A stretch of DNA of 64,000 bases from Nitrosomonadales bacterium (GTDB lineage: Bacteria; Pseudomonadota; Gammaproteobacteria; Burkholderiales; Gallionellaceae): assembly GCA_016235045.1 (NCBI GenBank), contig JACRME010000027.1, positions 1 through 64,000 on the forward strand, given 5' to 3'. A model generated the notes under the pieces. It was given only the letters and a program-made list of their open reading frames with translations, searched no databases and was not told the origin of the DNA. Position numbers and translations under genes: made by a program. Positions 53,641 to 63,875 of the stretch are shown one piece after another; position 1 is the stretch's first letter, and every line of letters begins with the position of its first letter.

Positions 53641-53707
53641 CTGTAGGAGCGCGATTTATCGCGCGATTGATCCGGCGTCTATCGCGCGATAAATCGCGCT
53701 CCTACAG
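53641..53707. repeat. Perfect 27-base palindrome, REP-like, between patB and egtD
   Basis: CTGTAGGAGCGCGATTTATC and its continuation (arm 53641-53667) are the exact reverse complement of 53681-53707, around a 13-base centre. The motif TGTAGGAGCGCGATTTATCG is a widespread dispersed palindrome in proteobacteria. It lies between convergent genes and could act as a bidirectional terminator. Confidence 0.8.
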
Positions 53708-53748
53708 GGGGCAACGAAGGTTTTCAGGTGAATTTGCGCAAAAAAGCA

Positions 53749-54735
53749 TCAGCGCGCCAACTTCAGCGGCTCGGTGGCGGACAGGCTCAGGTAATGCACG
53801 TCGAACATTCCCGCGCCGTCGCGCCAGGTCGATTGCAGATGCCAGCCTGCAGAGCGCGCCAGATGCTGAAATTCCTGCGCAGTGTATTTGTACGAATTCT
53901 CGGTGTGGATGGTCTCGCCCGCTTCGAACGCGAAGGATTCCCTGTCCAGCCGAATCTCCTGGCGGCAGCGGCTGACCAGGTGCATCTCGATGCGTCCCAA
54001 TTCCTCGTTGTAATACGCATGGTGTGCGAATTGCTCCGCGTCGAGCTGCGCGCCCAATTCGCGCTGCATGCGCGCCAGCAGGTTGAGGTTGAAGGCGGCG
54101 GTGTATCCGGCGGCATCGTTGTAGGCCGCATTCAGCACGGCGGGCGATTTCTTGCAGTCCACGCCGATCAGCAATCCGCCGTTGGGGCCGACCTGTTCGG
54201 CTGCATGCTGCAAAAGCCGTATCGCGCCCTCCGGGGTGCAGTTGCCGATGGTGGAGCCGGGAAAGAACACGACTTGCCGCCGACCCGCGTGGCGCTTGAA
54301 CGCATGCGCGGGGAGCCGATGGTAATCGGTGCACAGCGGCTGCATCGTCAGCGCCGGGAACATCGCCTGCAGGCGCTGCGTGCTGTGCAGCAGATGCGGT
54401 TCGCAGATGTCGATGGGCACATACACGGCATCGTCGGACAAGTGCCGCAGCAGCAGCGGCGTCTTGATCGCGCTGCCGCTGCCCAGCTCGATCAGCACGC
54501 AGGAGGCGCCGATCATTTCGGCCATCTCCGCACCGTGGCGTTCGAGGATGCCGATTTCGATGCGCGTCGGGTAATACTCCGGCGTGGTGCAGATCAGGTC
54601 GAACAGGTGCGAACCGTGCGTGTCGTAAAAATATTTCGGCGGGATGGACTTGGGCTGCCGGCGCAGACCCTCGCGCACGCTGGCGAGGAAATCGTGCTCG
54701 TGTTCGGCCTGGGATGTTTGGGATTCGCAACGCAT
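53749..54735 (-). CDS. egtD: L-histidine N-alpha-methyltransferase (ergothioneine step 1)
   Basis: EgtD (328 residues) makes hercynine by adding three methyl groups from S-adenosylmethionine to histidine. The SAM-binding motif is IELGSGSAIKTPLLLRHL, preceded by PPKYFYDTHGSHLFDLI and followed by FFPGSTIGNCTPEGA, LLIGVDCKKSPAVLNAAYND and NLNLLARMQRELGA, the last two forming the histidine site. The ATG (54735) overlaps the egtB stop by one base, so the two are coupled. Length and motifs are standard. Confidence 0.95.
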   Translation of the reverse strand: MRCESQTSQAEHEHDFLASVREGLRRQPKSIPPKYFYDTHGSHLFDLICTTPEYYPTRIEIGILERHGAEMAEMIGASCVLIELGSGSAIKTPLLLRHLSDDAVYVPIDICEPHLLHSTQRLQAMFPALTMQPLCTDYHRLPAHAFKRHAGRRQVVFFPGSTIGNCTPEGAIRLLQHAAEQVGPNGGLLIGVDCKKSPAVLNAAYNDAAGYTAAFNLNLLARMQRELGAQLDAEQFAHHAYYNEELGRIEMHLVSRCRQEIRLDRESFAFEAGETIHTENSYKYTAQEFQHLARSAGWHLQSTWRDGAGMFDVHYLSLSATEPLKLAR

Positions 54736-55982
54736 CAGACATCCTCCGCCAGACGCAGGCCGGAGAACGGCCAGCGATCCGCCGCGCGGAAAAAGTTGCG
54801 GTAGCTGGCGCGCAGGTGATCCCGCGCGGTGACGCAACAACCGCCGCGCAGCACCATCTGGTCGCTCATGAACTTGCCGTTGTATTCGCCCAGCGTGCCG
54901 GGCAGCGGTTTGAAGCCGGGGTAGGGCAGGTAAGCGCTCTGCGTCCACTCCCACAGGTCGCCGTAAAGCTGTGACATCCCGGCCTGTTGCGCGGGCCGCG
55001 GCACATACAATCCGTTGTCGAGGAAGTTGCCTGCGATGGCTTGCGTGCCAGCCGCATGCTCCCACTCCGCTTCGGTCGGCAGGCGTTTGCCCGCCCAGCG
55101 CGCGTAGGCATCCGCTTCGTAATAACTCAGGTGCGACACCGGCTCGTCCATGCGCAAGTCGTGCGCGCCGGTCAGGTCGAAATGCATCCAGTCGCGTCCT
55201 TCGCTGAACCAGTACAGCGGCGCCTGCCATTGCCGTTCCCTGATAGTGCGCCAGGCGTCGGACAGCCACAGATCGACACGGCCATAACCGCCGTCGTCGA
55301 TGAAGGCCAGGTATTCCGCATTGGTGACCAGCCGCGTGCCGAGACGGAAATCCTGCACGTAGGTCTTGTGCCGGGGGCGCTCGTTGTCGTAGGCGAAACT
55401 GTCGCCGTCGTGGCCGATCTCGACGATGCCGCCCGCGAATTCCTGCCAGCCCATTTCAGGCACCGGGTTGGTCGGCGCGGGGATGATCACGTTGTGGTAC
55501 GCCGGTTGCAACGGGTTGATGGAGAAGTTGTAGCGCGTATCCATCAGCAACAACTCCTGATGCTGTATCTCGTGCTCGATGCCGAGCTGCAATCGTTGCC
55601 GGATATCGGCGGCGTGCTGTTCCGGCGGATGTGCCAGCAGTTCCAGCATCGCGGCATCGACATGGCTGCGATAGCGATAGACCTCGGCCACGGTGGGGCG
55701 CGACAGCATGCCACGCTGCGGACGCGGGAAGAAGGTGCCCGCGGTCTCGTAGTAGGAATTGAACAGGTGCGCATATTCCTCGCGCAGCATGCGGTACTGC
55801 TTCGCATACGGCACAAGGATGAACATCTCGAAGAACCAGGTGACATGCGCGAGGTGCCATTTCGGCGGACTCACGTCGGCCATCGCCTGGATGCAGTAGT
55901 CCTCAATCTCCAGCGGCGCGCACAGCGACTCGGAGCGGGCGCGGATCGTCTGGTAACGTTCCATCAATGCGGCATCGTTCAT
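54735..55982 (-). CDS. egtB: Ergothioneine biosynthesis sulfoxide synthase
   Basis: EgtB (415 residues) uses a non-haem iron to join hercynine to a thiol (gamma-glutamylcysteine or cysteine) and oxidise it to a sulfoxide. The N-terminal DinB domain has the iron ligands His46 (HLAHVTWFFEMF), His137 and His141 in EHEIQHQELLLMD (HX3HXE motif). The C-terminal FGE-sulfatase domain includes FAYDNERPRHKTYVQDF, FDLTGAHDLRMDEPVSHLS and RLPTEAEWEHA. The thiol donor cannot be inferred: no egtA or egtC is present in this window. Confidence 0.94.
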   Translation of the reverse strand: MNDAALMERYQTIRARSESLCAPLEIEDYCIQAMADVSPPKWHLAHVTWFFEMFILVPYAKQYRMLREEYAHLFNSYYETAGTFFPRPQRGMLSRPTVAEVYRYRSHVDAAMLELLAHPPEQHAADIRQRLQLGIEHEIQHQELLLMDTRYNFSINPLQPAYHNVIIPAPTNPVPEMGWQEFAGGIVEIGHDGDSFAYDNERPRHKTYVQDFRLGTRLVTNAEYLAFIDDGGYGRVDLWLSDAWRTIRERQWQAPLYWFSEGRDWMHFDLTGAHDLRMDEPVSHLSYYEADAYARWAGKRLPTEAEWEHAAGTQAIAGNFLDNGLYVPRPAQQAGMSQLYGDLWEWTQSAYLPYPGFKPLPGTLGEYNGKFMSDQMVLRGGCCVTARDHLRASYRNFFRAADRWPFSGLRLAEDV

Positions 55983-55989
55983 CGTCGCG

Positions 55990-56280
55990 TCACTCCTCTA
56001 TTCGGACGCCATGCCAGAAGGCGATGTAGTCCTTGATGCGGGCGGCCATGGCAGACGGTTCAGGGTAATACCATGCTGCATCCTCGTTCACCTTTCCGTC
56101 AACCTCTACGTTGTAGTAACTCGCTTCGCCCTTCCATACGCAATGGGTGTGCGACTCGCTCGGCTTCAGGAATTCGCGCTTCACTGCGGCGGGAGGGAAG
56201 TAGATATTTCCCTCCACGCGGTGAATTTGCTCGCTCGGCGCTTCGGCGATGACCCGGTTGTTCCAGATGGCTCTGGGCAT
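55990..56280 (-). CDS. DUF427 family protein
   Basis: This 96-residue protein matches the DUF427 family by EGNIYFPPAAVKREFLKPSESHTHCVWKGEASYYNVEVDG-type features (seen as HTHCVWKGEASYY and AAWYYPEP). Its function is not known. It is the first gene of a three-gene minus-strand unit (DUF427, egtB, egtD) with only a 7-base gap to egtB. AAGGAG precedes the ATG and an ECF-like promoter lies 44 bases upstream. Confidence 0.85.
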   Translation of the reverse strand: MPRAIWNNRVIAEAPSEQIHRVEGNIYFPPAAVKREFLKPSESHTHCVWKGEASYYNVEVDGKVNEDAAWYYPEPSAMAARIKDYIAFWHGVRIEE

Positions 56281-56323: not shown

Positions 56324-56352
56324 TTAGTCGGTGCAGGCAGCCAAACCTTACA
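56324..56352 (-). promoter_or_regulatory. ECF-type promoter-like element upstream of DUF427-egtB-egtD
   Basis: On the minus strand TGTAAGGT (56345-56352), 14 bases, CGACTAA (56324-56330). The same two boxes with the same spacing occur upstream of three other units in this region. Distance to the ATG is 44 bases. Confidence 0.75.
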
Positions 56353-56362
56353 GCCGGGCATG

Positions 56363-57229
56363 TCAGGTAGCAACCACCACACCGTGCCTGCGTAGCACTT
56401 CCAGGTAGGTATCCGGTTCCGGTCGCACCCGGTAGTTGTCGGTCTCGTGCGTCCACACGATCTTGCCATCCTTGCCGGTGATGATGACGGTGGGCAGCAC
56501 CGTGTCGTTTTCGTAACCCAGCATCTGCATGCCCATGGGCAGACCGTTCACATGCTCGATGCCAAGCGCACGTGCCGCCGCATTGCCTTCGTCAGTGAGG
56601 AAATCGAATTTCGCGTCATAGGTCTTTGAAATTCCCACCGTGTTCTCGTGCGGCTGCGGGGCGATCATCGTGACGCGCACGCCGAGCGAGTCGATCTCCT
56701 TGTAACGCGCGATCAGTTCCCTGAGCTGTGCGGTGCAGAACGGGCACCAGTTGCCGCGATAGAAGATCAGGATGGCGGGCCTGTCGGTCAATTGGGCCGA
56801 GCTGACGAGATTGTCGTGCACATCGCGCACGGTGAAGTGGGGCAGCTTGGCGCCCACCACCAGTTTCATGCTGGGCTGCCGGTTGCCGAAGGTCGAGAAC
56901 CAGTATGCATACAACAGGAAGGAAACCCAGCCGACGGCGGACAGCAGCGCTGCCAGGCCTTCAGTGCCTGTGCTGGCCCATGCGTATCCGCTGAGCGCAG
57001 TGCCGGCGAGCCCCAGCAGGTTGATCAGCGGGAAATGCGCGCTGGTGCGAGCCACGTTCCTGAACATCATCACATAGCCGATCACCATCAAGATAGGCGC
57101 GCCCGTCAGCAGCACGCCGCTCCATGCTGTCAGGTTCCCGCCTTGGTAAAGCATCCAGCCCGCGTAAGCGGCAACGCCCATGATCGCCATCATGTAGCTG
57201 CTGATAAAGATCGATTTGAGCAAGTTCAT
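56363..57229 (-). CDS. Membrane-anchored redoxin (AhpC/TSA-type) with N-terminal helices
   Basis: The 288-residue protein has an N-terminal membrane region with three or four helices (about residues 8-28, 36-56, 70-86, 95-115) and a C-terminal thioredoxin-fold peroxiredoxin-like domain. The domain opens PHFTVRDVHDNLVSS, and the active site YRGNWCPFCTAQLREL holds Cys162 and Cys165 (CPFC). The later GLPMGMQMLGYENDTVLPTVIITGKDG is typical. The start at 57229 has AAAGGA at proper spacing; an earlier ATG at 57235 has the site too close. It follows an AhpD-like gene on the same strand. Likely role: reduction of peroxides or disulfides at the membrane. Confidence 0.8.
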   Translation of the reverse strand: MNLLKSIFISSYMMAIMGVAAYAGWMLYQGGNLTAWSGVLLTGAPILMVIGYVMMFRNVARTSAHFPLINLLGLAGTALSGYAWASTGTEGLAALLSAVGWVSFLLYAYWFSTFGNRQPSMKLVVGAKLPHFTVRDVHDNLVSSAQLTDRPAILIFYRGNWCPFCTAQLRELIARYKEIDSLGVRVTMIAPQPHENTVGISKTYDAKFDFLTDEGNAAARALGIEHVNGLPMGMQMLGYENDTVLPTVIITGKDGKIVWTHETDNYRVRPEPDTYLEVLRRHGVVVAT

Positions 57230-57314
57230 GTTCATATCCTTTCTTGAATCGGGTTGGCGCGCTTCTCCCGAATCGGGCGGTGCGAAGCGCGCGGAATGAA
57301 AGTGCCGCCCAGGA

Positions 57315-57902
57315 TTACGCCGCCTCCCGGCAGCAGGCGTAGTCGTCCGGCAATTCCCATGCCTCGTTGGCGAAAGCGGCATCCAGCGGTGTGTCGGTGA
57401 GGTGGTTGGCGTAATTGCTCAGCGTCTTCATGGTGACGCCGAGCACGACTTCCAGCGCGTTCTGCGGGGTATAGCCGGCGGCGAAGAACTCGTTCAGTTC
57501 CCGGCTGCCCGCGACCCAACCGCGCTCGCGCACCACAGACTTGGCGAAAGTCGCCAGCGCGTTCAGCTTCACATCGGGCAGGGCTTGACCGCTGCGCAGG
57601 GCGGCGATGATGTTGTCCGGAACCTTGACCATGTTGCGTGCGAGGAAGGAGTGCGCTGCCACGCAATAGGCGCAATTGTTTTCGATACTCACGGTGATGA
57701 GTACGACTTGCTGTTCCGTTGGTGAGAGCGAGCTCTTCTCCAGCAGGGCGCCCAACTGCTTGTAGGCTTCCAGCGCGTTGGGCGCTTCGGCCAGATGGGC
57801 GTAGAGATTGGGGATGAATCCCAAACCTTTATTGGCGGCTTCAAGTATGGGCAAGGCGCCGACAGGGGCAGTGGCGGGGGTGTGCAGTTTGAACGGGTTC
57901 AT
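57315..57902 (-). CDS. Carboxymuconolactone decarboxylase/AhpD-like protein
   Basis: The 195-residue protein has the AhpD-type active site ENNCAYCVAAHSF with Cys77, Cys80 and His84, used by alkylhydroperoxidases to reduce peroxides or regenerate peroxiredoxins. A predicted helical all-alpha fold fits. The C-terminus ends CCREAA, two extra cysteines. The start at 57902 has AGGAGA at the right spacing. It is upstream of the membrane redoxin and downstream of the AraC regulator, so a peroxide defence pair controlled by the AraC protein is a reasonable inference. Confidence 0.82.
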   Translation of the reverse strand: MNPFKLHTPATAPVGALPILEAANKGLGFIPNLYAHLAEAPNALEAYKQLGALLEKSSLSPTEQQVVLITVSIENNCAYCVAAHSFLARNMVKVPDNIIAALRSGQALPDVKLNALATFAKSVVRERGWVAGSRELNEFFAAGYTPQNALEVVLGVTMKTLSNYANHLTDTPLDAAFANEAWELPDDYACCREAA

Positions 57903-57911
57903 GACAGTCTC

Positions 57912-57956
57912 CTGAATGGGTTGGGCAACATGTTTGTTGCTGGAACCCATTGTCAG
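57912..57956 (-). promoter_or_regulatory. Palindrome covering the leader of the AhpD-like gene
   Basis: CTGAATGGGTT (57912-57922) pairs with AACCCATTGTCAG (57944-57956) with a 2-base bulge, and inner arms GGCAACA/TGTTGC add a second stem. In the mRNA the hairpin ends beside the AGGAG, so it could gate translation, or as DNA it could be an operator. Confidence 0.45.
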
Positions 57957-58045
57957 GAAACGGAGGGTTGGCCTCCATGACCGCAACAGCGTGAATTATG
58001 TCTGAACGTCCAGAGATGCTGCTCTATCTCGGATACACCGAAACA

Positions 58046-58206
58046 TCCCCTCCCCCTTGCAGGGGGACTGCGGAAGGGTCGCCGCAAAGCGGCGGGGTAC
58101 CCACCGGCGTACCCCTTGCGGGTGTGGTTAGGGTGGGGGTAGAAACTTAGCCATGCCACAACTCTACCCCCATCCCAACCTTCCCCCTGCAAGGGGGAAG
58201 GAGCAG
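58046..58206. repeat. Dispersed repeat element, copy 1
   Basis: A 160-base element with perfect 16-base inverted termini (CCCCCTTGCAGGGGGA, 58052-58067, and its complement, 58182-58197). It contains GGCGTACCCCTTGCGGGTG. A related copy lies at 59966-60112. It fills most of the gap between the AraC gene and the AhpD-like gene. No ORF. Confidence 0.65.
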
Positions 58207-58234
58207 GTTTGGTTCTGATGATTTTATGGTTTAA

Positions 58235-59134
58235 TCAACCGCGCACTTTACCCGGCGTAACCCCAACGATGCGCTTGAACGCCTTGCGGAACGCGGCCTC
58301 CGATTCATAGCCGCACTTCATGGCGATATCCAGCATGTTGGCGTTCTCGTCGGCGAGCATGCCTGTCGCCAGTTGCATGCGCCAGGTCGCGACGAATTCC
58401 ATCGGCGGCATCCCGACCAGTAGGCTGAAGCGTTCCGAGAAGGCGGAGCGCGACTGGCAGGCGAGTCCGGCCATGCGTTCCACCGTCCAGCTATCGGCCG
58501 GCGCGTCGATGAAAGCCATGACGGCGGCGCGCAGATGCTCGTCCGACAATGCCGCCAGTAGCGGCGAGAGTTTTGGCTCGTGATGCAGGGTGTGGCGGAT
58601 GACATACAGGAACAGCGTGTCCGACAGGCGATCCAGGATCGCGGTCACGCCGAGGTCGTTCTGTGTCGCCTCTTCGGTCATCATTTCGATCAGTTTGCGC
58701 AGTTGATGACCTACCTGGCTTTGATCCGGACGGATCAGCATGAACTCGGGGAATGAAGCGAGCAGCAGGCGGCGGATATGCGCGGGCAGTCTCAGGTGGC
58801 CGCACAGCAAACCGGTGCCGGGGGCATGCGCGTCCAGCGGGGCAGGGCGAGAGTAGTCGAACGCTTGCTGCGGGATGTCGGGCTCTGCGCTGAAGGCGTG
58901 CGCCGCATCGTGCGGAAAGAAAGCGATGTCGCCCGCCGCCATGCGCGTCGGCGCGCTGCCGTCCCGCATATGAATCCACGCCGCGCCGTTGCACACCAGA
59001 TGGAAAGTCGTGGCGTCGCTGCCGCCCGGCGTGGACATGTGCCAGGCATCGCACAACTGGCCGACGTAATACACCTCGGAGCCCAGATGCAGGCGGCGCA
59101 GGAAGTCGTTGAGTTGTGGTGCAGATACAGGCAT
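58235..59134 (-). CDS. AraC-family transcriptional regulator with cupin domain
   Basis: This 299-residue regulator has an N-terminal cupin (about 1-180; LGSEVYYVGQLCDAWHM, FFPHDAAHAFSAEP) that binds an unknown ligand, and a C-terminal double helix-turn-helix AraC domain (VERMAGLACQSRSAFSERFSLLVG and LDIAMKCGYESEAAFRKAFKRIVGVTPG). It is the third gene of the sigma, anti-sigma, regulator unit, five bases after the anti-sigma stop, and lies upstream of an AhpD-like and a redoxin gene on the same strand. No convincing ribosome binding site is seen, so it is probably translated by coupling. Confidence 0.87.
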   Translation of the reverse strand: MPVSAPQLNDFLRRLHLGSEVYYVGQLCDAWHMSTPGGSDATTFHLVCNGAAWIHMRDGSAPTRMAAGDIAFFPHDAAHAFSAEPDIPQQAFDYSRPAPLDAHAPGTGLLCGHLRLPAHIRRLLLASFPEFMLIRPDQSQVGHQLRKLIEMMTEEATQNDLGVTAILDRLSDTLFLYVIRHTLHHEPKLSPLLAALSDEHLRAAVMAFIDAPADSWTVERMAGLACQSRSAFSERFSLLVGMPPMEFVATWRMQLATGMLADENANMLDIAMKCGYESEAAFRKAFKRIVGVTPGKVRG

Positions 59135-59139
59135 CGTGC

Positions 59140-59316
59140 TTACAGTTTGCGCGGCAGCTCGCGCGCCACCTTGCGGATGAAGGCGAGCTGCTTCTCGAAA
59201 TTGCGGCAGCCCTTGCACATCATCAGGTGCATGCGCATCGCCATCCGCTCGCGCAGGGTGATCGGACGGTCATACGATTGCGACAGCAGTTCGGCGTTGT
59301 GTTTGCAGTCCAGCAT
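59140..59316 (-). CDS. Small zinc-finger anti-sigma factor
   Basis: The 58-residue protein MLDCKHNAELLSQ... carries the HxxxCxxC signature (His30, Cys34, Cys37 in HLMMCKGC) of zf-HC2 anti-sigma factors, and an extra Cys4/His6. It has no membrane segment, so it is a cytoplasmic redox- or metal-sensing type. Its start codon lies two bases after the sigma-factor stop and the SD overlaps that stop, so the pair is coupled. Loss of zinc on oxidation or metal exchange would release the sigma factor; inference from known family members. Confidence 0.8.
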   Translation of the reverse strand: MLDCKHNAELLSQSYDRPITLRERMAMRMHLMMCKGCRNFEKQLAFIRKVARELPRKL

Positions 59317-59318
59317 AT

Positions 59319-59882
59319 TCACCTCGCATTTCCAAACCAGTTGAGATCGAGACATTCGCGCAATGCCAGCCGCGCGCGGTGCAGGATCACCCAGCAGTTA
59401 GTCGTGGAGATCGCGAGTTCCTGACAGATCTCGTCGGTCGACATCTCCATGAACTCGCGCATCATGAAAGCGCGCGCGCTGTTGAGCGGCATGCGCCGGT
59501 TGCATTGCTCGAACACTTCCCAGAAATGGGTGTTCTCCATGGATTGTTCGGGTTCGTTCCAGGTCTGCGGCGGCGACGCCCAGCGACCGTTCTCCTTGAA
59601 CAGCGCATCGACCAGTTCGTTCTCGTCCTCGCCCTCGGCCACGTTCAATTGCGGCTCGCGCGCCCGCTTGCGCAGCATGTCCAGTATCTTGTGCTTGAGG
59701 ATGCCGACCAGCCAGGTGCGCAGCGAGGACTGCTCCGTGAATTTGCTGCGGTTCTCGATGGCGGCGACCAGCGTTTCCTGCACCGCATCCTCCGCCAGAT
59801 GCGGATCGCGCAACTGCAGGATGGCATAGCGCACCAGATAGCTGCGGTGCTGTTGCAGTGCATCGGGATCGACGGCGCTCAT
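59319..59882 (-). CDS. ECF sigma factor, RpoE-type
   Basis: This 187-residue sigma-70 family protein has region 2 (YAILQLRDPHLAEDAVQETLVAAIENRSKF, with SLRTWLVGILKHKILDMLR) and region 4 (MREFMEMSTDEICQELAISTTNCWVILHRARLALRECL). A middle linker of about 40 residues is acidic. It is followed by a zinc-finger anti-sigma and an AraC regulator. Four nearby units carry a common promoter-like element, and none of the other known sigma genes in the window would be expected to use it. I infer that this factor reads them. I see no copy of the element upstream of its own gene. Confidence 0.9.
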   Translation of the reverse strand: MSAVDPDALQQHRSYLVRYAILQLRDPHLAEDAVQETLVAAIENRSKFTEQSSLRTWLVGILKHKILDMLRKRAREPQLNVAEGEDENELVDALFKENGRWASPPQTWNEPEQSMENTHFWEVFEQCNRRMPLNSARAFMMREFMEMSTDEICQELAISTTNCWVILHRARLALRECLDLNWFGNAR

Positions 59883-59965
59883 TCAGACTCCATAGTGCGG
59901 GGCTGTCGAATGGTAACACCCGCCCGCCGGAATGTTTTTCCCAGATAATCCATTAGAGCCAAACA

Positions 59966-60112
59966 CGCTCCTTTCCCCTTGCAGGGGCTGCGCCAAGACC
60001 GACCGAAGGTCGAGTGTCTGGCGGCGTACTCCTTGCGGGTGGAAGGTTGGGATGGGAGCGATAGCGTTTCTACCCCCTCCCTAGCCCTCCCCCCGCCAGG
60101 GGGAGGGAATGC
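59966..60112. repeat. Dispersed repeat element, copy 2
   Basis: A 147-base element related to that at 58046-58206, in the same orientation: CTCCTTTCCCCTTGCAGGGG at the left, GGCGTACTCCTTGCGGGTG inside, TACCCCCTCC and GGGGGAGGG at the right. It fills the gap between the ECF sigma gene and the cytochrome operon. The copies differ by substitutions and small gaps. Confidence 0.6.
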
Positions 60113-60138
60113 TTCGGCTAATGGCATATTTGGGTTAA

Positions 60139-60726
60139 TCAGTGTGGCTTCGCCGCACACGGGTTGCCGCTTGCCCTGAAGCCCTTCTGCAACGATGCCG
60201 TGTACGCCGTCAGCGCCGCCAGTTCCTTGCTATCCCAGGCCAACGGTTTCGCCGCCATCGGCACCACCATGCAGAACTGCACCATCTCGTCCAGATGCAC
60301 GGTCTTCACGGCGGAACGGTCATGCGCCATCTGCACCTGATGTGGATACGGCTGGGCGAAGGTGTTCTGGAACGCGCCATTGCCCTGGTGGCAGGTGTGG
60401 CACGACATGCCGTTGCTGCTCAAGCTCGTGTCCCGGAACAGCTTCTCGCCATAAGCGGTGAGTGCGGCGATATCGCCACGGTAGGGGCGATAGTGCTTCG
60501 GGCGCAGCACCAGCCCGGTATCGACGCGATCCGCCATCGCTGCCGCGCAGGGGTTCTTTGCCGCACATGGATTTTTTGCGGCACAGGGGTTGTTCATACG
60601 CGACGAGGCCGGCCGCGGTGCACAGGGATTCGCCGGGCGGCAGGGCGCAGCATGTGCCGCACCGCCCAGCGACAGGGTCAGCGCGCCGGACGAGACCAGC
60701 GCACGCATCAGGGCAGAGTGTTTCAT
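60139..60726 (-). CDS. Secreted cytochrome c with NPCAAK repeats
   Basis: The 195-residue protein has a signal peptide (1-26, ending GGAAHA), then a Cys-rich segment with five PC motifs (APC, NPC, NPC, NPC, NPC; residues 28-62), then a c-type cytochrome domain with heme motif CHTCH (109-113), and ends NPCAAKPH. The repeat and signal are shared with the NPC-repeat protein at 63500-63796, so the two are related by their N-terminal part. The repeat is unlike any heme site and could bind soft metal ions. It follows a 42-residue protein by 18 bases; AAGGAG precedes the ATG. Confidence 0.82.
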   Translation of the reverse strand: MKHSALMRALVSSGALTLSLGGAAHAAPCRPANPCAPRPASSRMNNPCAAKNPCAAKNPCAAAMADRVDTGLVLRPKHYRPYRGDIAALTAYGEKLFRDTSLSSNGMSCHTCHQGNGAFQNTFAQPYPHQVQMAHDRSAVKTVHLDEMVQFCMVVPMAAKPLAWDSKELAALTAYTASLQKGFRASGNPCAAKPH

Positions 60727-60744
60727 ATCGTTCTCCTTTCGCGC

Positions 60745-60873
60745 TCAGGCCAGGAACAAATACGCGGCGATACCGGCGACGGCGAGCAGCACCACGACCA
60801 GCATCATCTTTTCGTGGACGCACATACCGGGCGTGGTCTCGCAACTGCTGTTCATTTTGCACATGATGGACAT
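60745..60873 (-). CDS. Small Met/Cys/His-rich membrane protein (42 residues)
   Basis: This ORF encodes MSIMCKMNSSCETTPGMCVH followed by a helix (about 24-41, LVVVLLAVAGIAAYLFL). The N-terminal 24 residues hold three Cys (5, 11, 18), one His (20) and six Met (1, 4, 7, 17, 23, 24), a composition that suggests soft metal binding near a membrane. AAGGAG is six bases before the ATG and an ECF-like promoter 50 bases upstream. Stop-to-start distance to the cytochrome gene is 18 bases, so it is the first gene of that operon. No homologue is recalled. Confidence 0.72.
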   Translation of the reverse strand: MSIMCKMNSSCETTPGMCVHEKMMLVVVLLAVAGIAAYLFLA

Positions 60874-60922
60874 GTCAACTCCTTAAGAATGGTTAAGTCA
60901 CGCTTTGCGACGGTGACGTGCG

Positions 60923-60952
60923 TTAGTCGTGTGTAACGAAATAATCCTTACA
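60923..60952 (-). promoter_or_regulatory. ECF-type promoter-like element upstream of the 42-residue protein
   Basis: On the minus strand TGTAAGGA (60945-60952), 15 bases, CGACTAA (60923-60929), ending 50 bases before the ATG. Confidence 0.72.
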
Positions 60953-60964
60953 AACGAATAACCA

Positions 60965-60993
60965 TGTAAGGAATCCGCCTGTCCAACGACTAA
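60965..60993 (+). promoter_or_regulatory. ECF-type promoter-like element upstream of the thioredoxin gene
   Basis: TGTAAGGA (60965-60972), 14 bases, CGACTAA (60987-60993), ending 49 bases before the ATG at 61042. It lies back to back with the minus-strand element, so one region serves both divergent units. Confidence 0.75.
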
Positions 60994-61041
60994 GACATAG
61001 CGGTACATACCCACTCGATTAACCTTATCAAGGAGAGCACC

Positions 61042-61422
61042 ATGAGAACGCTAATGAAATTCGTGACTCTGCTGTCATTGCTGTTCCCGTTGTTCGCCCA
61101 GGCCGTCGGCGATCCCTACACCCAGGACAAACTGGACGCGCTGAACAAGTCCGGCAAACCGGCGCTGGTGTTCATCCATGCCGACTGGTGCCCAACCTGC
61201 CGCGCGCAGGATGCCGTGCTGGAGAAATTGCTGCCGACCGAAGAGTTCAAAGCCATCACGACACTGAAGGTCGACTTCGATACGCAGAAGCCCGTGGTCA
61301 AGGCTTTCGGTGTCATGTATCAGAGCACGCTCATCGTGTTCAAGGGCGGCAAAGAAGTTACCCGCGTGACCGGTGAGACCGACCGCGACAAGATTGCAGC
61401 GCTGTTGCGCAAGGGGCTGTAG
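61042..61422 (+). CDS. Periplasmic thioredoxin-like protein
   Basis: A 126-residue protein with a signal peptide (about 1-21, MRTLMKFVTLLSLLFPLFAQA) and a thioredoxin fold with active site HADWCPTCRAQ (Cys50, Cys53) and STLIVFKGGKEV. Its CPTC motif suggests a reducing role. AAGGAGAGC supports the ATG at 61042. A CcdA-like gene, the usual electron donor across the membrane, lies 142 bases downstream. Confidence 0.88.
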   Translation: MRTLMKFVTLLSLLFPLFAQAVGDPYTQDKLDALNKSGKPALVFIHADWCPTCRAQDAVLEKLLPTEEFKAITTLKVDFDTQKPVVKAFGVMYQSTLIVFKGGKEVTRVTGETDRDKIAALLRKGL

Positions 61423-61435
61423 ACGACCTCACCGC

Positions 61436-61457
61436 GTGGGCACAAAGACGTGCCCAC
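61436..61457. repeat. Short palindrome after the thioredoxin gene
   Basis: GTGGGCAC (61436-61443) and GTGCCCAC (61450-61457) enclose AAAGAC. It follows the thioredoxin stop by 13 bases and may serve as a terminator stem or be a dispersed repeat. Confidence 0.55.
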
Positions 61458-61496
61458 TCTACGAATAATTAAGGTTCATGGCTTGGTGGAGAGTCA

Positions 61497-61545
61497 GTAG
61501 GGTGCGCCTGCGCACCATTCGCAACGGTACGTAAACGCACCCTAC
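61497..61545. repeat. Inverted repeat GTAGGGTGCG ... CGCACCCTAC
   Basis: Perfect 10-base arms at 61497-61506 and 61536-61545 with a 29-base centre. It lies in the gap between the thioredoxin gene and ccdA. The form resembles dispersed palindromes common in Betaproteobacteria. Confidence 0.6.
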
Positions 61546-61564
61546 ACAGGAAAACGGAGAATAT

Positions 61565-62047
61565 ATGGAATTAACCGCAACCAGCTACGGCCTGTCCTTC
61601 CTCGCGGGCGTATTGTCCACGCTGTCCCCCTGTGTGCTGCCGCTTATCCCCATCCTGATGGGCTCGGCAGCGAGCACGCATCGCTTCGGCACCTTCGCGC
61701 TGGTAGGCGGGCTGATGTTGTCGTTCACGCTGATCGGCGTGGGGCTGGGTTCGCTGGGCGGCAGCATCGGACTGGAGCAGGGTACCTTGCGCATCGTCGG
61801 CGGCGTGCTGTTGATCCTGTTCGGCGCGGTGCTGTTCTCCAGCCGCTTGCAGGACAGGTTCAGCGCGGCGGTCAGCCGAATGGGCGTGGGGCAGGGCTTG
61901 TTGGCGCGGTTTAATCTTAACGGCTTGCACGGCCAGTTCCTGCTTGGCCTGTTGCTGGGCATCGTGTGGAGCCCGTGCGTCGGCCCCACGCTGGGCGTGG
62001 CGATCACGCTGGCCAGCCAGGGTCAGGTACTGGCGAGACGGTCATGA
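61565..62047 (+). pseudogene. ccdA: CcdA/DsbD-type membrane protein, C-terminally shortened
   Basis: This 160-residue protein has the CcdA helices and both redox cysteines: Cys23 (STLSPCVLPLIPI) and Cys137 (GIVWSPCVGPTLGV). Normal CcdA proteins run to about 220-240 residues with six helices; this one stops after ITLASQGQVLARRS, losing the last two. The stop overlaps the ATG of the DUF302 gene, so a deletion may have fused the ccdA 5' part to a following gene. It could be a non-functional remnant or a reduced protein; the pathway from cytoplasmic thioredoxin to the periplasm needs the missing helices. Confidence 0.72.
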
Positions 62048-62496
62048 AACTGTTGTCATTCATATTTGCCGCACTGTTGGTTTCCTTCTCATCGTTGGTA
62101 CTGGCCGCCGACGGACTCGTCGCCGTGAAAAGCCCGCACAGCGTCTCCGCCACGATGGATAGATTTGAGGCATTGGCAAAGCAACGCGGACTCGCCGTGT
62201 TTGCACGCATCGATCATGCTGCGGGGGCGGCAAAAATCGGCAAAGCGCTGCGTCCCACAGAAGTGATCATCTTCGGCAATCCGCAAGGCGGCACACCATT
62301 CATGGAATGTGCGCAGACCGTGGGTATAGACCTGCCGTTGAAAGCGCTGGTCTGGGAGGATGCATCCGCCCAGGTATGGCTTGGCTACAACGATCCTGAT
62401 TATTTGGCCAAGCGTCACGATGTGGCGAAGTGTCCGGTTGTCGAGAATCTGCGCAAGGCGTTGGCGGGCTTGGCGGAAGCTTCAGTAGCTCCGTGA
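62044..62496 (+). CDS. DUF302 family protein
   Basis: This 150-residue protein has a signal peptide (about 1-21, FIFAALLVSFSSLVLAAD) and a DUF302 domain with HSVSATMDRFEALAKQRGLAVFARIDH and EVIIFGNPQGGTPFMECAQTVGIDLPLK. DUF302 proteins are common near metal and sulfur redox genes, but have no settled function. The ATG overlaps the end of ccdA by four bases. Confidence 0.85.
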   Translation: MKLLSFIFAALLVSFSSLVLAADGLVAVKSPHSVSATMDRFEALAKQRGLAVFARIDHAAGAAKIGKALRPTEVIIFGNPQGGTPFMECAQTVGIDLPLKALVWEDASAQVWLGYNDPDYLAKRHDVAKCPVVENLRKALAGLAEASVAP

Positions 62497-62508
62497 TGTG
62501 GAATTCGC

Positions 62509-62730
62509 TTAACTGCAACAGCCCTTGCCGTTTTCCTGCACCGGCGGACACGGCACGCTGCCATAGGAACAATACACGCAGCAATCGCCGGGCTTGGGTT
62601 TGAGCAGGACGTGGCAGTGGGGGCATTCGTAGAACCACTGGCATGCGTCTGTCGGCATGGTTTCCAGTTGCCGGTGTCCGCAGTGCGGGCAGGTGAGCAG
62701 CGATTCCAGTACGGGTTTGAACGGGGTCAT
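62509..62730 (-). CDS. GDCCVxC domain protein
   Basis: This 73-residue protein has three Cys clusters: CPHCGHR (residues 14-20), CPHCH (36-40) and GDCCVYCSYGSVPCPP (48-63), and a C-terminal CCS. The GDCCVxC motif defines a family whose members occasionally hold selenocysteine and which often accompany metal-resistance genes. The first two pairs look like a zinc ribbon. The ATG overlaps the stop of the preceding gene (four bases). Confidence 0.82.
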   Translation of the reverse strand: MTPFKPVLESLLTCPHCGHRQLETMPTDACQWFYECPHCHVLLKPKPGDCCVYCSYGSVPCPPVQENGKGCCS

Positions 62731-63515
62731 GGCTGGCTTTCCCGGGTGGTGATCTCCCGTTCGATTCTACCCAGAATATCCTCCACTGAAATATCGATCT
62801 GGCTGGTGATGTCCAGTGCCCGGTCTTCGAACACGTCCTCGCCGGGATGCGCGTCTGCCCAGGCCCACACGATCTCGTCGCGCTTTTTCAGCAACGCTTC
62901 GATGTGCGGACGGTAGAGTACGAACATCGCGCTGATCCAGCGGTTTACCGGCAACGAGGGGAATGCATGGTCGATGACGAAACTATCCAACATTCGTATC
63001 ACCTGCTCGGCGGGATACCAGGCTTCGGCGGTGACCCAGCGGTTGGTGGTGAACAGTGTTGTCGGAAAACCGTAGCCGTCCATGGCGATGGCGACCAGGT
63101 GCGACAGCGCTTCGTCGCCTGTCGGCCACGGATCTGTTGCTGGATATTCGATGGGTGCGACACCGTCAGTCATGCCCTTGGGACGCAGGAAGCAATGGAA
63201 ATGTCCGTGCTCTCCCGTTTCGCTGCGATGCGCGTGGTAGTAATACTGCGCATGCGTTTCGCGGTCGTACACGTCGTCTTCGGGGTAGTGGTTGAATTCG
63301 TAGAACGTCTCGCCCCGGTTCAGGGAATCGCGCAACACTTCGCCGACGATGTTCAATCCGGCCTTGCGCAACGCACGATAACTCGCGGCGATCTCATGCC
63401 CCGCCTGCCGCATTGCATGCAACTGCTCCGGCGGCAGGCGGGAGAGATCGGGCGCAACAACCAGCCTCGATTCGAGGCCGGTCGCAGGTACTGCCTGTTT
63501 TAGTGCGCTGCGCAT
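62727..63515 (-). CDS. Uncharacterised protein with HGHFHCF motif
   Basis: This 262-residue protein has no signal peptide. A conserved-looking centre ETHAQYYYHAHRSETGEHG followed by HFHCFLRPKG is rich in His, Tyr and Cys, and could bind a metal; later features are ATDPWPTGDEALSHLVAIAMD and AEAWYPAEQVIRMLDSF. I recall a similar family named DUF6969 but cannot confirm it. The start overlaps the 3' end of the NPC-repeat gene by 16 bases, and its stop overlaps the GDCCVxC gene. The likely start is ATG at 63515; no good SD is seen, so coupling is assumed. Confidence 0.65.
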   Translation of the reverse strand: MRSALKQAVPATGLESRLVVAPDLSRLPPEQLHAMRQAGHEIAASYRALRKAGLNIVGEVLRDSLNRGETFYEFNHYPEDDVYDRETHAQYYYHAHRSETGEHGHFHCFLRPKGMTDGVAPIEYPATDPWPTGDEALSHLVAIAMDGYGFPTTLFTTNRWVTAEAWYPAEQVIRMLDSFVIDHAFPSLPVNRWISAMFVLYRPHIEALLKKRDEIVWAWADAHPGEDVFEDRALDITSQIDISVEDILGRIEREITTRESQP

Positions 63516-63796
63516 GGATTTTTTGCACCGCAGGGGTTCTTCGCAGCACACGGGCTTTTGGCTGCGCAGGGATTCTTGGCCGCGCACGGGTTGGCCTTCT
63601 TCTTGGATTTCGCCATGCACGGGTTCTTGCCGGCACAGGGATTCTTCCCGGCGCAGGGATTGGCGCTTGCCGTCTGACGCGAACGCGCCGCGCAGGGATT
63701 AGCTGCGCCGCAGGGGGCGGCACAGGCTGCACCGCTTACGGCCGCTGCCAGTGCGCCGGAAGATAACAGTGTCTTGGCGATTTGATTGAGGTTCAT
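63500..63796 (-). CDS. Secreted Cys-rich NPCAAK-repeat protein
   Basis: This 98-residue protein has a signal peptide (1-26, ending GAACA) and a mature part built of about ten short units, each with Pro-Cys: APCGAA, NPCAAR, NPCAGK (twice), NPCMAK, NPCAAK (twice), SPCAAK, NPCGAK and NPCAAH. Ten cysteines, each after proline, lie three to fifteen residues apart and many lysines follow. It has no tryptophan or long hydrophobic stretch after the signal, so it is likely disordered and metal- or thiol-active. The ATG has AAGGAG; an ECF-like promoter lies 50 bases upstream. First gene of a three-gene unit. Confidence 0.8.
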   Translation of the reverse strand: MNLNQIAKTLLSSGALAAAVSGAACAAPCGAANPCAARSRQTASANPCAGKNPCAGKNPCMAKSKKKANPCAAKNPCAAKSPCAAKNPCGAKNPCAAH

Positions 63797-63846
63797 TGGA
63801 GTTCTCCTTGATTGTGATGGCATGGCCGAAATGGCGGATGCGGGAG

Positions 63847-63875
63847 TTAGTCGGGGCAGGGGCGGATTCCTTACA
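63847..63875 (-). promoter_or_regulatory. ECF-type promoter-like element upstream of the NPC-repeat operon
   Basis: On the minus strand TGTAAGGA (63868-63875), 14 bases, CGACTAA (63847-63853), ending 50 bases before the ATG at 63796. Even the spacer start ATCCGCC is shared with the element at 60965. Confidence 0.78.

Follow-up and report, generated by a model that had tools for sequence, protein, structure and literature searches.

A putative two-box promoter element shared by four units around an extracytoplasmic function sigma gene, with a candidate copy inside that gene, in a Gallionellaceae bacterium

We analyzed a 64,000-nucleotide stretch of a Nitrosomonadales genome (family Gallionellaceae; contig JACRME010000027.1, assembly GCA_016235045.1), hereafter the window, which holds a gene cluster encoding an extracytoplasmic function (ECF) sigma factor, an anti-sigma factor, ergothioneine synthesis proteins, a periplasmic thioredoxin and Cys-rich NPC-repeat proteins. 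Four copies of a two-box element, TGTAAGG-N15/16-CGACTAA, precede genes of this cluster, and a fifth, near-identical copy lies within the sigma gene itself, ahead of the anti-sigma gene. The original prediction for this DNA had placed an ECF sigma gene with a zinc-finger anti-sigma in the middle of the cluster, and the TIGR02943, NF052368 and PF13490 models all score above their cut-offs. Sigma regions 2 and 4 are both present (PF04542, 58.6 bits, cut-off 24; PF08281, 35.8 bits, cut-off 25.7), and the zinc pattern of the anti-sigma, C-x24-H-x3-C-x2-C, fits the group 13 zinc-binding anti-sigma pattern C/H-x23-26-H-x3-C-x2-C. The genome encodes one sigma of the TIGR02943 type at E <= 1e-20. The features, in window coordinates, are as follows:

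53749..54735, minus strand: egtD (TIGR03438, 378.5 bits, cut-off 290.9)
54735..55982, minus strand: egtB (TIGR03440, 563.4 bits, cut-off 360)
55990..56280, minus strand: DUF427 protein (PF04248, 107.7 bits, cut-off 22.1)
56324..56352, minus strand: putative promoter 1, TGTAAGG-N15-CGACTAA, precedes DUF427-egtB-egtD
59140..59316, minus strand: anti-sigma factor, 58 aa from MLDCKHNAEL (NF052368, 74.5 bits, cut-off 50; PF13490, 27.5 bits, cut-off 22.2)
59319..59882, minus strand: ECF sigma factor, TIGR02943 family (251.5 bits, cut-off 162.2; other equivalog models below their cut-offs)
59398..59426, minus strand: candidate intragenic promoter 5, TGTCAGG-N15-CGACTAA, within the region 4.2 helix-turn-helix codons of the sigma gene
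60139..60726, minus strand: NPC-repeat c-type cytochrome, SoxA/TsdA-like domain (PF21342, 39.7 bits, cut-off 27)
60745..60873, minus strand: p42, a 42-aa Cys-containing membrane peptide (no family above cut-off)
60923..60952, minus strand: putative promoter 2, N16 spacer, precedes p42 and the NPC cytochrome; the sigma gene lies beyond these on the same strand
60965..60993, plus strand: putative promoter 3, N15 spacer, precedes the periplasmic thioredoxin and DsbD_TM
61042..61422, plus strand: thioredoxin with leader (PF00085, 54.2 bits, cut-off 23.5)
61565..62047, plus strand: DsbD/CcdA-type membrane protein (PF02683, 39.5 bits, cut-off 27.1)
62509..62730, minus strand: GDCCVxC protein (NF041374, 109.7 bits, cut-off 40)
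62727..63515, minus strand: DUF6969 protein (PF22308, 275.3 bits, cut-off 27)
63500..63796, minus strand: NPC-repeat Cys-rich protein (from sequence only; no family)
63847..63875, minus strand: putative promoter 4, N15 spacer, precedes the NPC-repeat protein, DUF6969 and GDCCVxC

All four extragenic copies stand where they had been predicted, in either orientation, against 0.00 expected from 100 dinucleotide-preserving shuffles of the window. Their spacer, previously given as N14/15 with the following A/T counted into the first box, is N15 at three sites and N16 at one, and the gap from the -10 box to the start codon is 43, 49, 48 and 50 nt in ascending coordinate order (the NPC-repeat start being set at the Met of MNLNQ, 63796), a shade wider in range than the 44-50 bases first proposed. 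TGTAAGG alone occurs seven times in the window, three of them lacking the second box at that distance, as had been remarked, and CGACTAA alone occurs five times (2.98 expected). The fifth CGACTAA (59398-59404) belongs to the intragenic near-match in the sigma gene, a site before the anti-sigma gene that the original inventory of four had overlooked.

A genome scan with the two-box motif, proposed as a check on the prediction, returned exactly four TGTAAGG-N15/16-CGACTAA matches in 3,145,614 bases (a 33-contig assembly, 95% complete), all in the cluster, and none for the backwards pattern. The relaxed form TGTAAGN{15,17}CGACYA recovered the same four and no others; because its backwards control finds five, it is not specific alone, and it is the strict form that carries specificity. 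Searching with TGTMAGN{15,17}CGACYAA gave six matches — the four extragenic sites, the intragenic site and one elsewhere — with none for the backwards control. This sixth match, TGTCAG-N17-CGACCAA, lies outside the cluster, at G000:C10:28523-28552.

The boxes recur before the same four gene types in related genomes. The comparison covered 34 family genomes, from which we took 40 stretches no longer than 20 kb, picked for a sigma or motif match; the genomes searched were one per species, some of them incomplete. Genes were labeled by BLAST against the window's proteins and counted at >=45% identity over >=60% of the protein, with the window included, and the motif was scored as TGTAAG-N14-18-CGACYA on the same strand between -170 and +150 of the open reading frame (ORF) start, such starts being uncertain. 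It precedes p42 in 13 of 14 relatives, the thioredoxin in 8/13, the NPC-repeat protein in 7/10 and DUF427 in 8/10. Control genes gave 0/78 (sigma 0/24, AhpD 0/15, TlpA-like 0/10, DsbD 0/13, GDCCVxC 0/6, egtB 0/10); AraC gave 1/17, and the NPC cytochrome, the second gene of its unit here, 5/14. The backwards motif was found before no gene class in the relatives, whose upstream regions carry CGACTAA or CGACCAA as the -10 box, that is, CGACYAA. Viral contigs yielded eight loci, none of them a close relative.

The motif also tracks the sigma factor across genomes. Among 150 genomes of the family, the strict motif occurred in 20 (33 matches, five of which fall within sigma genes), and 17 of these 20 were among the 35 genomes carrying the sigma at E <= 1e-20. 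Across the class, 370 genomes were scanned and TGTAAGG-N15-CGACYAA was present in 25 (42 matches), including 20 of the 48 with a sigma at E <= 1e-40; once five genomes with a match solely inside the sigma gene were set aside, the motif occurred in 15/48 genomes with the sigma versus 5/322 others. One genome with four motif copies and no listed sigma (G268) has a sigma of the TIGR02943 type in two overlapping frames, at a weaker E. Further afield, the motif occurs in loci of TIGR02943-type sigmas of Pedobacter and Mucilaginibacter as well as of an acidobacterium and a verrucomicrobium; the motif-sigma pairing therefore looks old. At four Mucilaginibacter/Pedobacter loci (L155, L156, L158 and L160) the same putative promoter stands directly before the sigma gene; in L155, L156 and L160 a second copy follows the anti-sigma gene, preceding Lys/Met-rich small proteins in L155 and L156.

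Because the footprints are conserved before their targets but not before neighboring control genes, are confined to the cluster genome-wide and co-occur with the sigma, a single ECF regulon that depends on the cluster's own sigma and is read by it appears well supported. The single-regulon part of the original prediction is thereby strongly supported. Its suggested inducers, oxidants or soft metals, would be in keeping with the genes present and with the response to oxidants described for relatives in Haemophilus influenzae and Neisseria meningitidis (PMC7907618).

The intragenic site reads TGTCAGGAACTCGCGATCTCCACGACTAA (59426-59398, minus strand) and encodes C-Q-E-L-A-I-S-T-T-N of sigma region 4.2, with the anti-sigma start (MLDCKHNAEL, 59316) 81 nt downstream. 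We followed it through 147 sigma genes from 145 loci recovered by profile search (the window, L063-L102, L224-L274 and, from a set of 80 loci, the first 59, the 21 weakest being excluded). The source searches relied on the whole protein, a profile or region-2 peptide patterns rather than on region-4.2 codons, although some family stretches had been chosen by motif. The site is present in 48 of the 147 genes, and 47 of these 48 have a zinc-type H-C-C ORF whose start, picked with a ribosome-site heuristic, lies 42-158 nt downstream of the site, 81 being the commonest distance. In the 320 nt upstream of the sigma gene, 0/48 genes with the site have a loose motif (TGTAA-N16-18-CGWCYA), versus 8/99 of those without it. 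In several more distant relatives the intragenic -35 is an exact TGTAAGG.

We then asked how far the protein sequence accounts for these letters. In 58 of the 147 genes the sigma has residues compatible with the site (Cys, Lys/Gln, Ala/Ser/Thr/Pro, Thr and Asn), and for these we compared codon counts with expectations from each locus's own codon usage. TGT was used in 56 (19.9 expected), AAG/CAG in 56 (29.9), NCG in all 58 (15.5) and ACY in 51 (33.3), and the whole site was present in 47/58 against 1.48 expected (18/20 in the own family, where the idea arose, and 29/38 outside it). Among 32 representatives below 70% identity the codons numbered 31, 30, 32 and 27, respectively, and the whole site was found in 24 (0.86 expected; P = 1.6e-32, which treats not fully independent genes as independent). 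The NCG codon before Thr-Asn encodes Thr in 27 genes, Ser in 14, Pro in 11 and Ala in 6, so that the CG letters are constant as the residue varies. Three hundred within-gene synonymous shuffles gave a mean of 4.03 and a maximum of 12 sites versus 47 observed, or 2.38 and 7 versus 24 among the representatives, and by strength of third-base constraint the motif codons take places 1, 3 and 4 among the 178 columns. At other Cys codons of compatible genes, TGT appeared in 15/58, 7/24 and 29/58 (expected 19.9, 7.3 and 19.9); in sigmas with other residues, TGT was used at the same Cys in 38/80 (28.1 expected) and NCG in 13/43 (11.8 expected). Codon choice at the intragenic site is strongly constrained.

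The explanation that we consider probable combines a four-unit sigma regulon with an intragenic anti-sigma promoter that would close a negative loop. Several observations weigh against it. The backwards controls of the large scans are nonzero (9 versus 33 matches in the family, 13 versus 42 in the class); seven genomes (four in the class scan, three in the family scan) carry the motif with no sigma at E <= 1e-15; and outside the own family only five extragenic motifs (control 0) were found in 582 kb beside compatible sigmas. In some relatives a sigma paralogue (43-46%) that lacks the intragenic site adjoins AraC, AhpD, DUF427 or egtB, and it may read the same motif there. As for the intragenic site, its -35 in the own lineage, TGTCAGG, departs by one base from that of the extragenic sites; L064 and L066, both among the closest sigmas, have no full match, and the full site is likewise missing from 11 of the 58 compatible genes. 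A quick tree of 133 sigmas, with the motif residues left out, requires 27 changes of the site versus 39.5 with shuffled labels, at least 14 of them forced by well-supported branches; the site has therefore often been lost or gained, being both widespread and subject to turnover. The own-family codons had already been seen when the compatible class was defined, and two controls are mildly above expectation, namely TGT at 29/58 of one other Cys and at 38/80 in non-compatible sigmas. Finally, the second-ranked synonymous constraint in the sigma gene is at Leu62 (GILKHK; 59697-59699), where CTC is used in 22/31 representatives versus 5.6 expected, in no recognized motif.

The constraint at Leu62 lends some weight to a different role for the intragenic letters, for instance as an RNA element or in coupling translation of the anti-sigma gene to that of the sigma gene; the constrained letters and their 15-base spacer match the extragenic promoters, and we regard such a role as unlikely. 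More doubtful still is the idea that the extragenic sites form a real regulon and the intragenic likeness is a coincidence of the C-K/Q-E-L-x-I-S-x-T-N code and codon bias: the residues alone do permit the match, the helix-turn-helix residues are conserved and the own-lineage -35 is imperfect, but synonymous positions are fixed beyond both codon usage and within-gene shuffles, and the other Cys codons and non-compatible sigmas stay near expectation. We rejected protein-coding coincidence on these codon statistics. That the element is instead an operator for the AraC-family regulator, whose gene is kept in the cluster across relatives, is very improbable, given that the sigma is far commoner in motif genomes than in others, that the motif adjoins TIGR02943-type sigmas in distant phyla (where AraC genes were not looked for), and that a pair of boxes 15-16 bases apart shows the established -35/-10 geometry of ECF promoters.

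Under the favored explanation, a sigma promoter regulon with an intragenic copy, the TIGR02943-type sigma would be bound by the small zinc-type anti-sigma encoded directly after it, and released when the zinc site is oxidized or binds a metal. Free sigma would then transcribe four units from TGTAAGG-N15/16-CGACYAA promoters: DUF427-egtB-egtD, p42 with the NPC cytochrome, thioredoxin-DsbD, and NPC-repeat-DUF6969-GDCCVxC. Transcription from the p42/NPC-cytochrome promoter may read through into the sigma gene (same strand, 256-nt gap), giving a positive loop. The putative fifth promoter, within the codons of the -35-reading helix of the sigma, points at the anti-sigma gene; it would yield inhibitor without sigma, and therefore a negative loop. 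From these sequence patterns we infer promoter activity, the reading of the sites by this sigma, feedback, read-through and the stimulus. The codons of the -35-reading helix are likely to be doubly selected, both for the residues that would read the promoter and for a promoter copy serving synthesis of the inhibitor, an arrangement that recurs in distantly related members of one ECF family and would have been gained or lost many times.

Parts of this arrangement resemble characterized systems. In the ECF16 systems of Caulobacter crescentus (SigF) and Sinorhizobium meliloti (RpoE7), the anti-sigma is of another type than here, NrsF. NrsF has been named together with bufferin clusters (PMC12452194). 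The SigF and RpoE7 regulons are likewise small and metal- or DUF692-linked, with related promoters, GTAACC-N16-CGAA and TGTAAC...GCGAAT, that differ from ours in their -35/-10 letters, and their sigma genes have an upstream promoter of their own (PMC3511200, PMC6180224). RpoE2-HrsE of H. influenzae and SigE-MseR of N. meningitidis, named ECF group 13, answer to oxidants; HrsE is a 67-aa anti-sigma co-transcribed with its sigma, and the zinc pattern described for HrsE and MseR is seen in the anti-sigma here (PMC7907618). Both systems control small regulons made up of DUF genes and genes that repair thiols or methionine, the targets being msrAB, a dmt transporter and a DoxX/DUF692-type cluster (PMC7907618) where the window has ergothioneine genes, thioredoxin-DsbD and NPC-repeat proteins; the likeness is one of description. 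The experimental precedent for the proposed feedback logic is Corynebacterium glutamicum SigH-RshA, in which a SigH-dependent rshA promoter lies within sigH, in a setting of thiol stress and a zinc-type anti-sigma (PMC3489674). SigH belongs to another ECF branch with a GGAA / GTT type promoter, and the accessible portion of that paper mentions neither a helix-turn-helix codon location nor cross-species codon retention for the rshA promoter (PMC3489674). ECF control of egtB and egtD is not new in itself, since putative egtB and egtD genes are reported in the EcfG regulon of Sphingopyxis granuli, EcfG being a general stress response sigma of another family than TIGR02943 (PMC7083833). Acinetobacter baumannii SigAb was rejected as a relative, its promoter being GTCAAC / CGTT (PMC12153292). 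We found no account of the TGTAAGG/CGACTAA motif or of a helix-embedded promoter in the literature searched, a search whose scope left out most subscription papers. A term search within PMC8103513 gave no hits.

Several features of the neighboring genes deserve mention. The ORF at 53702-54742 was discarded as egtD, being in the wrong frame and without a family match, and the SenA model scores below its cut-off (337.5 versus 420). The DsbD_TM ORF has 160 aa here versus 241 aa in most labeled relatives and runs into a DUF302 ORF (61565-62496), so the protein looks C-terminally shortened in this genome. The NPC-repeat and DUF6969 genes overlap (62727-63796), and the pair is retained in several relatives. 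DUF6969 has invariant His residues (HxH...EHGHxH), its model (mean predicted local distance difference test score 68) had no match in the PDB at E <= 0.001, and its substrate or partner could be the Cys-rich repeat protein. The latter, considered as a precursor of a ribosomally synthesized and post-translationally modified peptide of the MNIO/bufferin kind, has no Pfam or NCBIfam match; no MNIO match was found among the proteins scanned from 53.7-63.8 kb, the genome as a whole not having been searched for one. PMC12452194, consulted on a bufferin reading of the NPC proteins, does not contain the term 'NPC' in its main text. Two related C/G-rich intergenic repeats in opposite orientation (58032-58220 and 59951-60117) flank the sigma/anti-sigma/AraC block.

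Collectively, our results would tie ergothioneine synthesis, thioredoxin-DsbD and uncharacterized NPC-repeat proteins to one sigma factor with a sharply defined putative promoter, suggesting a stress role for them. They further point to a regulatory element lying within the codons of just that part of the protein which would read it, an overlap visible from codon choice alone. The codon-choice approach may offer a cheap way to find hidden anti-sigma promoters in other sigma families.

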